Assembly: GCF_002025255.2 (NCBI RefSeq)
Contig: NZ_CP054587.1
Location: forward strand, 62,001 to 126,000
Direction of reading: 5' to 3'
From: Halolamina sp. CBA1230
GTDB lineage: Archaea > Halobacteriota > Halobacteria > Halobacteriales > Haloferacaceae
Length of the DNA stretch: 64,000 bases
The first letter of the stretch is position 1. Each line of letters starts with the position of its first letter. Of the stretch, positions 23,330 to 58,704 are shown one piece after another. A program made the position numbers and the translations under genes. The notes beneath the pieces are model-generated. The model ran no database searches and had not been told where the DNA came from. It was given only the letters and a program-made list of their open reading frames with translations.

Positions 23330-24529
23330 ATGGCACCGAACGCGGACAGCCAACCACGGCCGACACGGCGACGGCTCCTCGCCGCCGGCGGCGCGGCGGC
23401 GACCGGCGCGCTGCTCGGCGCGGCCGGCCCCGCGGCGGCCCAGTCGTCGTTCGACGGCTGGTTCGACGGCGTCTCGAACTACGACGGCGTCGCGGACCGC
23501 ACCGGCGAGTCGGAGGTGACCGTCGAGGTCGGCGTCGACAACGGCGGGCAGCCGTACGGGTTCGGCCCGGCGGCGGTCAGGGTCGACCCGGGGACGACGG
23601 TCGTCTGGGAGTGGACCGGGCGGGGTGGATCGCACAACGTCGTCGCAGAGAACGGCGCCTTCGAGTCGGAGATGTCCTCGGAGGAGGGACACACGTTCAG
23701 CCACACGTTCGAGGAGGAGGGGACGTTCAGGTACGTCTGCACCCCCCACCAGTCACTCGGGATGAAGGCGGCCGTCGTCGTCGGCTCCGGCGGCGGCGTC
23801 TCCGAGCCCGACTACGGCGGCTGGTTCGACGGCGTTTCCAACTACGACGAGACCGTCGACGAGCGCGGAAGCTCGGAGGTGACCGTCGAGGTCGGCGTCG
23901 ACAACGGCGGACAGCCGTACGGGTTCGGCCCGGCGGCGGTCCGGATCGACCCGGGGACGACGGTCGTCTGGGAGTGGACCGGCCGCGGCGGGTCGCACAA
24001 CGTCGTCGCACAGGACGGATCGTTCGAGTCCGACCTCTCCTCGGAAGGGGGGCACACGTTCAGCCACACGTTCGAGGAGGAGGGCGTCTACCGCTACGTC
24101 TGCACGCCCCACCAGTCACTCGGGATGAAGGGCGCCATCGTCGTCGGGGACGTGAGCGGCGGTGGCGGGGACGGCGGCGAGGAAACCGAGGGCGGTGGAG
24201 AGGAAGCCGGCGGCAGCCTGCTCCCGATGCCTTCGGACTTCGTCGGCTGGCTGGCGCTGCTGATGGGCGGCGGCGGCGGGCTCGCGGTGTCGATGGTGCT
24301 CGGTGCCGAGTCCTACGCCGCCTACCGCGAGCACGAACGGGCCGAGCGGAGCTACGTCGGCGAACAGGCCACGGAGGCCGTCGGAACCGAGCCGGTCGAG
24401 GAGATCGACGACGGGTACGATCCGGTCGGGACGGCCGCGCTCGTCACGGGCTACTTCGTCCTGATCGCGCTGCTGTGGGTGTTCATGTACTTCGTCGAGT
24501 TCATCGGCGGGCCGACGATCACGGGGTAA
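23330..24529 (+). CDS. Tat-exported double-domain halocyanin with a C-terminal membrane anchor
   Basis: A 399-residue protein. A Tat signal (PTRRRLLAAGGAAATG) is followed by two near-identical blue-copper domains, about residues 40-150 and 165-270, each starting FDGWFDGVSNYD or YGGWFDGVSNYD and carrying the type I copper ligands in GGSHNVV and YVCTPHQSLGMK (His...Cys..His...Met). A Gly/Glu-rich linker leads to a membrane segment at ~305, a polar stretch and a last helix GYFVLIALLWVFMYFV. It is four bases upstream of oxidase subunit II. Halocyanin carries electrons at the membrane, here probably to the ba3 oxidase. Confidence 0.92.
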   Translation: MAPNADSQPRPTRRRLLAAGGAAATGALLGAAGPAAAQSSFDGWFDGVSNYDGVADRTGESEVTVEVGVDNGGQPYGFGPAAVRVDPGTTVVWEWTGRGGSHNVVAENGAFESEMSSEEGHTFSHTFEEEGTFRYVCTPHQSLGMKAAVVVGSGGGVSEPDYGGWFDGVSNYDETVDERGSSEVTVEVGVDNGGQPYGFGPAAVRIDPGTTVVWEWTGRGGSHNVVAQDGSFESDLSSEGGHTFSHTFEEEGVYRYVCTPHQSLGMKGAIVVGDVSGGGGDGGEETEGGGEEAGGSLLPMPSDFVGWLALLMGGGGGLAVSMVLGAESYAAYREHERAERSYVGEQATEAVGTEPVEEIDDGYDPVGTAALVTGYFVLIALLWVFMYFVEFIGGPTITG

Positions 24530-31360: not shown

Positions 31361-31401
31361 ACGTGCCGCTCTTCGTCTCACTTCGTTCGACAGAAGAGCC
31401 G
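31361..31401 (+). repeat. 41-bp direct repeat, tRNA-proximal copy
   Basis: Differs from 29075-29115 at one base. Its last bases form the 3' end of the tRNA-Thr gene on the minus strand. The hairpin inside it would be transcribed just after the tRNA and could help end transcription. Confidence 0.75.
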
Positions 31402-31469
31402 GAGGAGGGATTTGAACCCTCGACCTATTCCTTACGAAGGAATCGCTCTGCCAGCTGAGCTACTCCGGC
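31397..31469 (-). tRNA. tRNA-Thr (CGU)
   Basis: A 72-nt cloverleaf plus discriminator reads on the minus strand: 7-bp acceptor GCCGGAG/CTCCGGC, D arm with AGCTGGCAG, anticodon stem ATTCC/GGAAT with loop TTCGTAA (anticodon CGU, codon ACG, threonine), T arm GAGGG/CCCTC with loop TTCAAAT, discriminator U. CCA is not encoded and no intron is seen. The 3' end overlaps a repeat found again at 29075, a usual site for integrating elements. A TTAT-type element about 35 bases upstream could be the promoter. Confidence 0.95.
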
Positions 31470-32530: not shown

Positions 32531-32595
32531 ACCGGCGTTCGGCGCCCGGCGGGAGTAAGCATGACGGATGGCGTTTCGGCCCTCACCGTCCGCCC

Positions 32596-32686
32596 AGCGC
32601 CGGCGAGCACTACGCCCACGCCGGCCGACCAGCGCCGGCGAGCACTACGCCCACACCGGCAGACCATCGCCGGCGAGCACTACGCC
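32596..32686 (+). repeat. 35-bp tandem repeat, 2.6 units, overlapping the end of the ABC ATPase gene
   Basis: Units start at 32596, 32631 and 32666. Each has the core CGCCGGCGAGCACTACGCC. The third, partial unit contains the TAG stop of the ATPase gene on the minus strand (32680-32682), so the array may have grown by repeated copying of the gene's 3' boundary. There are no spacers. Confidence 0.72.
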
Positions 32687-57525: not shown

Positions 57526-57532
57526 CGCCGCG

Positions 57533-57942
57533 ATGGCGTACGAACCCGCGAATCGCCCCCGACGGTCGACCGTTTTCTGGAGCTCCGCGACGCCGCCGAG
57601 ATGGCCGAACGCTCGCGCGAGGCAGTCGAACGTGGACTCCCGAACAGCCTCTACGCCGTGACGGTCGTCGACGACGTGGGCGAGACGGTGGGGATGGCCC
57701 GGATCGTCGGCGACAGGGGGAGCGTGTTCCACGTCTGCGACATGGCGGTCCATCCGGACCACCAGCGACAGAGGCTGGGGAGCCGGATGATGGATGCGCT
57801 GATGGACTGGATCGACGAGAACGCACCCCCGACGGCGTACGTGAACCTCATGGCTGACGTCGACGGCTTCTACGAGCAGTGGGGGTTCGAGCGGACGGCG
57901 CCCGCCTCCAAGGGGATGTACTACCGCGTTCCCGGGGAGTAG
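57533..57942 (+). pseudogene. GNAT-family N-acetyltransferase gene with a probable N-terminal frameshift
   Basis: From ATG 57601 the frame gives 113 residues of a GNAT fold: YAVTVVDDVGETVGMARIVG, then the acetyl-CoA loop DMAVHPDHQRQRLGSRMMDALMDW, and FYEQWGFERTAP. The usual ~25 residues before it are encoded in the same frame upstream (RESPPTVDRFLELRDAAE) but have no start codon, whereas ATG 57533 (MAYEP) is in another frame. A single missing base near 57545 would join them. It may be a mutated gene, a sequencing error, or a gene that starts late at 57601. Confidence 0.68.
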
Positions 57943-57999
57943 CGTCGGCGTACGGCGGGCTGTCGAGGTTCTCTTTGGCGCGTCCGTGATCGGCCAGAA

Positions 58000-58363
58000 C
58001 ACGATCGCGGCGTGGCGCTCGTTGACGGCGGTACAGAGACCGCCGTGGCTCGCGAGCCGCGATCTATCAGTACACGATCACGGCATGGGTTCTGTCGTCG
58101 CACGCCGGAGCGCGCGACAGGTCACGCGCCGTGATCGGTTAGTAACACGACCGCGGCGGAGACTCCGTGTTCGCGACACGGAGGTCGCTCACGGTCGTTC
58201 GCCGCGGTCTATCAGAACACGATCACGGCATGGGCTCCGTCGTCGCACGGCGGAGCGCGCGACAGGTCACGCGCCGCGATCGGTCAGAAACACGATCACG
58301 GCATTGGTTCGGTCACGGCGACACGGGGGTCGCCGTAGCTCACGCGCCGCGATCGGTTAATAC
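58000..58363 (+). repeat. Five tandem ~73-bp palindromic repeats
   Basis: Units start at 58000, 58073, 58146, 58218 and 58291. Each begins CACGA(T/C)C(A/G)CGGC and ends in CGCG(A/G)TC(T/G)(A/G)T(C/T)AG-type sequence, so every junction has an inverted repeat GCCGCGATC...GATCACGGC. Units 2 and 4 are nearly the same (GTCGTCGCACGCCGGAGCGC or variant), units 1 and 3 less so, unit 5 mixed. The last unit includes the stop codon of the HTH gene at 58357. There are no spacers and no tRNA cloverleaf. Confidence 0.8.
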
Positions 58364-58704
58364 TCCTCGTACGCGAGGTTCATCAACCACTGCGAGAACG
58401 CGTCGGACTGCTCGTCGATCTCCTCCTCGCCGATGAACGGGGTGAGCATATCCCCGGCCATCAGCAGCGAGAAGTCCAGATCCCGCGTGCGTGGCTTGAG
58501 GAGGTACGTGTTGTGCCCGTCGTACACCGCTTCCTCGCGCTGGATCAGCTCCTCCTCGGCGAGCCCCTCCGCGATGCGGCTCCCCTTCCGGGAGGAGATG
58601 TCCAGTTCCTTCCAGAAGTCGCTCTGGTAGATGCCGCCGGAGTCACGGATCAGCTCCAGGGCCCGCCGCTCGTCTTCGCTGAGGTCGTACTCGGCCGCGC
58701 TCAT
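58357..58704 (-). CDS. Small winged-helix protein (MarR/Lrp-like HTH)
   Basis: A 115-residue protein starting MSAAEYDLSEDERRALELIR. The HTH is SGGIYQSDFWKELDISSRKGSRIAEGLAEEELIQREE with a wing VYDGHNTYLLKPR. The tail (DLDFSLLMAGDMLTPFIGEE...SQWLMNLAYEEY) is probably for dimerisation. Similar proteins occur throughout haloarchaea, often as single genes near core genes. It is convergent with the GNAT gene across the repeat array and divergent from the glutaredoxin gene. Confidence 0.82.
   Translation of the reverse strand: MSAAEYDLSEDERRALELIRDSGGIYQSDFWKELDISSRKGSRIAEGLAEEELIQREEAVYDGHNTYLLKPRTRDLDFSLLMAGDMLTPFIGEEEIDEQSDAFSQWLMNLAYEEY

Follow-up and report, generated by a model that had tools for sequence, protein, structure and literature searches.

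Nested palindromic repeats positioned directly behind stop codons form a REP-like family specific to Halolamina

Genomes of the haloarchaeal genus Halolamina carry a dispersed family of short nested palindromes that stand directly behind stop codons, in arrays of one to five head-to-tail copies leading away from the upstream gene. In 85 of the 112 arrays of three genomes, the first unit starts between -6 and +4 nt from the stop of the gene upstream. On balance, we favour the explanation that these are genus-specific, REP-like elements which, if transcribed, would form a stack of hairpins in the 3' untranslated region (UTR), and which probably originated at the end of a helicase gene. One array lies in the window, that is, the 64,000-nucleotide stretch of Halolamina sp. 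CBA1230 that was analysed here; the genome to which it belongs is referred to below as the home genome. The genus is taken to be Halolamina because the winged-helix protein encoded next to this array has its four closest relatives, with 90-93% identity, in named Halolamina strains.

The array in the window consists of five head-to-tail minus-strand units of 71-73 bp each and a truncated sixth, and spans positions 57984-58359 (Table 1). Three methods agree with an earlier note, made from the sequence alone, in which five tandem repeats of about 73 bp were recognized: Tandem Repeats Finder delimited an array at 57979-58357 with a period of 73 and 5.2 copies, a repeat search placed four units at spacings of 73, 72 and 73, and a covariance model (R1, see below) produced five minus-strand matches with starts 73, 72, 73 and 72 apart, so that the spacing originally read (73, 73, 72, 73) was about right but one base off. 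Alternating units had also been thought to be more alike and, indeed, units 2 and 4 are 92% alike in the repeat search, compared with 60% and 75% for other units; because, in addition, a 145-bp period (2.6 copies) outscores the 73-bp period in Tandem Repeats Finder, a two-unit duplication is likely. The inverted repeats that the note assigned to the junctions are present, but the hairpin forms inside each unit, and what looks like a junction palindrome is made up of one hairpin's right arm, a linker and the following hairpin's left arm.

Table 1. The array in the window and the genes on either side of it
Feature	Position in window	Strand	Description	R1 score (bits)
Upstream gene	58357..58704	-	115-aa winged-helix protein, DUF7343/MarR-like, just below both cut-offs	
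Unit 1	58289..58359	-	Nearest the upstream gene; first 3 bases are its TAA stop	80.7
Unit 2	58216..58286	-		81.0
Unit 3	58144..58214	-		67.4
Unit 4	58071..58141	-	92% identical to unit 2	81.8
Unit 5	57998..58069	-		64.6
Truncated left arm of a sixth unit	~57984..57997	-	Sequence by eye; the Tandem Repeats Finder array begins at 57979	
Convergent neighbour	57601..57942	+	GNAT acetyltransferase, 113 aa counted from the first in-frame ATG	

As described in the note, the array fills the gap between two convergent genes, whose ends lie at 57942 and 58357, and takes in a stop codon, the TAA of the minus-strand winged-helix gene, in which it begins before running towards the GNAT gene. The latter (window 57526-57942) had been suspected of being broken; it does have no in-frame ATG at the place where its Halolamina orthologues start, but translation from the next ATG leaves the GNAT domain intact, and its 5' end seems to be shifted relative to the orthologues. 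Comparison of the array with phage and plasmid collections by blastn gave no match, and an origin from such elements was rejected. So was membership in a known RNA family: the only Rfam match above the gathering score in the whole window was a tRNA at 31397-31469, and the array remained unmatched. Two other repeats were observed in the window, a 363-bp repeat in two tandem copies at 23455-24147 (87% matches, in-frame length) and 3.1 copies of a 35-bp repeat at 32579-32686 (90% matches).

Each unit is a nested palindrome, with stems of 10 bp (outer) and about 7 bp (inner). In the reading direction of the upstream gene, the outer left arm, in the window array mostly CGATCACGGC or CGATCGCGGC, is followed by a stretch of 8-9 nt and the inner stem, whose loop is often CTCCGTG; then come the stretch CACGGAG, the outer right arm GCCGTGATCG and TGT. 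The palindromic core CGGC/GCCG is nearly invariant across units and the outer arms vary widely. The five window units fold more stably than expected by chance, with RNA fold z-scores of -3.4 to -5.1 in the sense orientation and -3.5 to -5.6 on the other strand. A pseudoknot between the CTCCGTG loop and the downstream CACGGAG, which are paired in 77% of the cells of alignment A1, was considered and rejected, double changes being found in just 2 of 7 pairs. At five loci of the home genome (L002, L004, L021, L028 and L033), units harbour a 56-nt insert with two hairpins that starts GTTAACGAGA and is located at much the same point of the inner stem in units whose outer arms differ; this element behaves like a small mobile repeat (SMR) targeting palindromes. 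Clusters of other short hairpins, for example those around GAAATCAGAGATTTC, interrupt units at L020/L030 (C1:2651865-2652045) and L028 and make up a further repeat family.

The model R1, built from 32 home-genome units (alignment A1), detected 73 units in 38 arrays in that genome, 72 of them on contig C1 and one on C2, with 15 single, 15 double, 5 triple and 2 quadruple arrays and one array of five units, the one in the window. The other six Halolamina genomes contain 15, 69, 60, 65, 100 and 63 units. The genome search that the note had proposed thus revealed a dispersed family, and the case that it named as refuting, a single locus with random copy changes, is excluded by the 73 units together with the presence, in each of the four named strains, of an array at this stop codon; a product of slippage at a single locus was likewise rejected, the family being genome-wide. 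R1 matched all 7 genomes of the genus and none of 33 genomes of other genera. A family-wide scan matched 11 of 170 genomes (the seven of the genus, three g38 genomes and one weak match), and an order-wide scan 6 of 293 (three of the genus, one g38 genome and two with weak single matches). The weak single matches outside the genus are in G173, where the match looks coding, G236 and G390; these large scans scored only part of the first-look candidates, 17-150 in each genome, and may have overlooked weak members beyond the genus. Outside Halolamina, clear members were seen at one gene end only, that of a HerA-like helicase. One Halolamina genome, G001, has just the 15 units, none of them at the helicase end, and the family is therefore not essential for the genus. 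The home genome has 10 Y1_Tnp matches, only one of which, located on C2, has a unit less than 1 kb away, and the survey of these matches yielded no enzyme or route for dispersal; mobilisation of the IS200/RAYT kind was rejected, as no association of the units with Y1_Tnp genes was seen in this genome. Next to the sole C2 unit (L164, C2:173233-173811), at a distance of about 160 bp, there is an IS200-type Y1 transposase gene.

Anchoring at the stop codon is similar in all three genomes analysed for it, with 30 of 38 arrays anchored in the home genome, 25 of 34 in G004 and 30 of 40 in G002, where only stops of coding-like frames were counted, by a home-made coding score trained on 22 window frames. 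The offsets are mostly 0, -1 or -2, with each of the three stop codons in use. Control positions shifted by 30-300 nt had a stop in range in 15 of 4032 cases, and the far end of the arrays, examined on the other strand, in 2 of 112 (one in the home genome, one in G004 and none in G002). Among the 27 misses are a locus shared across the genomes (L013, L195, L239), with the stop at -15 or -16, the helicase end (L161, L206, L250), where the stop falls inside the unit, and arrays broken by other hairpins (L020, L162, L185). The arrays are always head-to-tail and sense-oriented, pointing away from the upstream gene.

The anchoring, the polarity and the stable folds make the 3' UTR the likeliest site of action. 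A unit transcribed with its gene would fold into a stacked hairpin, so that a row of hairpins would start the 3' UTR of the mRNA. Stable hairpins can protect the ends of messages against exonucleases, and the likeliest effect would be that 3'-to-5' decay is slowed or RNA polymerase is paused; the terminating ribosome might possibly be slowed as well. Haloferax 3' UTRs have a reported median length of 97 nt (PMC7237163), and E. coli REPs located at most 15 nt from a stop are reported to stall ribosomes (PMC12306157). The hairpins could also themselves end transcription, the terminator block envisaged in the note: hairpin clusters near bacterial stops have been reported as terminators (PMC8355165), and a hairpin motif taken from a coding region ended 59% of the transcripts of a Haloferax volcanii reporter (PMC7237163). 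Against this, TTTT is found inside none of the 112 arrays, leaving a U-tract terminator unsupported, and within 150 nt downstream it is found at 27 arrays, with AAAA at 12; at one locus, a TTTTT lies downstream in a species that has the unit and also in one that lacks it; and 22 of the 38 home-genome arrays precede a co-directional gene, by a rough coding score. We consider a terminator block highly improbable.

At the window locus, the four named Halolamina strains have 2, 4, 3 and 2 units, compared with 5 here, each array beginning at the stop codon of the same winged-helix gene, so that the strain comparison suggested in the note shows copy numbers differing between 2 and 5; the remaining 60 loci compared had no match better than E 0.1. 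Copy number changes through tandem duplication and loss. Recombination, another of the note's proposals, or slippage accounts for the copy number and the alternating units. Of the 38 home-genome arrays, 27 have a counterpart behind the orthologous gene in G004 (19), G002 (22) or both (14), and the arrays at these ends differ in copy number. At eight gene ends without a shared array, inspection by eye of 30 orthologous ends showed a few units, a few decayed remnants and, at most ends, neither; where the protein C-terminus was compared, it had the same or nearly the same length, and the sole clean empty site that was compared had no visible target duplication.

An alternative is a purely selfish short mobile repeat inserted by an enzyme at gene 3' ends without host function, similar to the SMRs of Haloquadratum, which are described as 80-110 bp long with inverted repeats, no target duplication and no known mover (PMC3119063). 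The confinement of the burst to one genus, and the present or absent loci and decayed remnants seen by eye between species, fit this alternative. It does not readily accommodate the use of all three stop codons, which means that no fixed target sequence explains the anchoring, or the fact that most of the arrays, the 27 shared ones, are old. Together with the pattern of stem changes considered next, these points lead us to regard a purely selfish repeat as possible but rather unlikely.

The stems change rapidly in sequence, yet their arms keep pairing. Because the 32 units of A1 were chosen by a pairing filter, covariation in that alignment is inflated and is not independent evidence; we therefore used 127 units from G004 and G002, none of them in A1, that were collected with a sequence-only profile (129 matches spanned the model and two were dropped for length). 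In this set, Watson-Crick cells number 576, against 432 in shuffles, for the six variable outer pairs, and 788 against 439 for the inner stem. Between orthologous first units (34 pairs with alignable units out of 36 listed, mean identity 0.70), the outer stem has 37 double changes preserving the Watson-Crick pair and 41 changes on one side only, and the inner stem 93 and 38, respectively; with the best-matching unit pair per locus there are fewer changes, and at least one compensated inner pair in 20 of 34. Compensated changes thus match one-sided ones in frequency in the outer stem and outnumber them in the inner stem, which is more than the decay of a selfish repeat would leave. Likeness is 0.68 within arrays (shared arrays of the home genome; 0.75 for neighbouring units in all three genomes), 0.68 between orthologous arrays and 0.62 between random unit pairs. 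As orthologous units are only about 70% identical, any function should reside in shape rather than in sequence.

Pairing that is kept by selection on sense RNA should tolerate G-U mismatches but not A-C, and the acceptor and T stems of 29 home-genome tRNAs indeed contain 9 G-U and no A-C. The outer stem has no such signature: among 187 model-found units (of 207, the 20 outside 68-75 nt being omitted), it has 84 A-C and 81 G-U mismatches, and the sequence-only set has 61 and 66 for the same two classes, about equal in both cases. The inner stem has at most a modest sense-RNA signature, with G-U exceeding A-C by 68 to 35 in the 187 units and by 45 to 29 in the sequence-only set, or, when one unit per array is counted, by 40 to 21 (p 0.02, model-found) and 21 to 16 (sequence-only). 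Unlike in tRNA stems, then, what keeps the outer stem paired is a process at the level of DNA, or copying, and not sense-RNA selection alone; the strand symmetry of its mismatches is also that of neutral decay, as a selfish repeat would have it. Template switching during DNA replication is reported to be able to form stems and to preserve them, with compensatory changes of several bases included (PMC8794818), and haloarchaea are reported to be polyploid with efficient gene conversion (PMC8223754, PMC11276520). From the mismatch pattern, we infer that template switching and gene conversion of DNA may keep the arms complementary as the sequence changes. Some inner stems are found again at further loci, joined to different outer arms (14 pairs in the home genome, with outer mismatches of 0-6 of 20, 8 in G004 and 1 in G002), a pattern that fits ectopic gene conversion. 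The comparison of G-U with A-C is a caution against taking covariation as proof of RNA function.

The strand-symmetric outer stem and the nearly invariant palindromic core would also be expected if the inverted repeats acted as DNA, as boundary sites at gene ends that are bound by a protein, as in the protein-binding array that the note envisaged, or extruded as cruciforms, with RNA being irrelevant. A symmetric site, however, has no obvious use for a fixed orientation and a near base-exact distance from the stop; the wide variation of the outer arms is unlike a binding motif, and the inner-stem excess of G-U in the model-found set points to RNA. A DNA boundary site appears quite improbable to us, and we return to the REP-like family behind stops and its origin.

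A candidate founder can be seen at the HerA-like helicase gene, for which the Pfam HerA_C match is just under its cut-off. Units are present at this gene end in 6 of 7 Halolamina genomes, in all three matching genomes of g38 and in one g16 genome of the two viewed. In most genera looked at, the last codons of the gene ahead of its stop encode TRHGE or TRHGD, and the DNA that encodes these residues resembles the left arm of the unit, also where the array is absent. In g38, the helicase gene is followed by a degenerate tandem array of related hairpins with a similar period (L176-L178). This array shares with the Halolamina units the architecture, the gene end and related sequence and differs in that no second locus matched below 0.001 in the three g38 genomes. 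The element was probably born where the helicase gene ends and would then have spread in the Halolamina lineage; the units at the helicase end could instead have come by insertion at this gene in an ancestor.

Among known systems, the family resembles the REP/BIME elements (GTAG and CGTC super-families), which are likewise short dispersed extragenic palindromes, single or in tandem, species- or genus-specific and, in some cases, close behind stops (PMC3733652, PMC12306157). The Halolamina unit is twice as long as a REP of 20-40 bp, and nested; by eye, its consensus ends CC..GTGT without a GTAG or CGTC tag; GTAG-type REPs flank RAYT, a Y1 transposase, whereas no RAYT was seen beside Halolamina units; and the units are archaeal, always head-to-tail and sense-oriented. 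Anchoring is far tighter, at 85 of 112 within -6 to +4 nt, compared with the 446 of 4,072 E. coli REPs reported within 15 nt of a stop (PMC12306157). The SMRs of Haloquadratum walsbyi are also haloarchaeal and consist of inverted repeats in tens of copies with, as reported, no known transposase (PMC3119063); both have inverted arms, in 80-110 bp and 71-73 bp, respectively, but SMRs insert in other mobile elements whereas the Halolamina units are tandem arrays at the stops of cellular genes. The 56-nt hairpin insert comes nearer to the behaviour of SMRs than the units themselves. The bacterial hairpin-cluster terminators share the location within tens of bases of the stop, but the Halolamina units are homologous to one another genome-wide, and in the bacterial study the sequence near the stop is reported not to be conserved (PMC8355165). 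A search of the open-access literature found no description of the Halolamina unit family. Resembling REPs and haloarchaeal SMRs but failing a defining feature of each, it is a variant apart from both.

A bolder version of our reading, clearly unlikely to hold in full, is that of a lineage-specific archaeal 3'-UTR module positioned by translation termination, in which the number of units tunes the outcome, template switching keeps the hairpins perfect while leaving their sequence free to change, and the helicase gene's own 3' end is the founder. If this were true, the first hairpin would stand a few nucleotides past the stop, where the terminating ribosome must meet it, and the family would represent a regulatory element of recent birth, with its founder still visible. 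REP-like elements have long been catalogued and their function is disputed. The Halolamina family combines near base-exact anchoring, an age of one genus, a candidate birthplace and copy-number variants of the same gene end in sister species, and these four traits make three questions testable: whether such elements act in the message or in DNA, how they land at stops, and whether compensatory changes in their stems can come from DNA copying instead of RNA selection.
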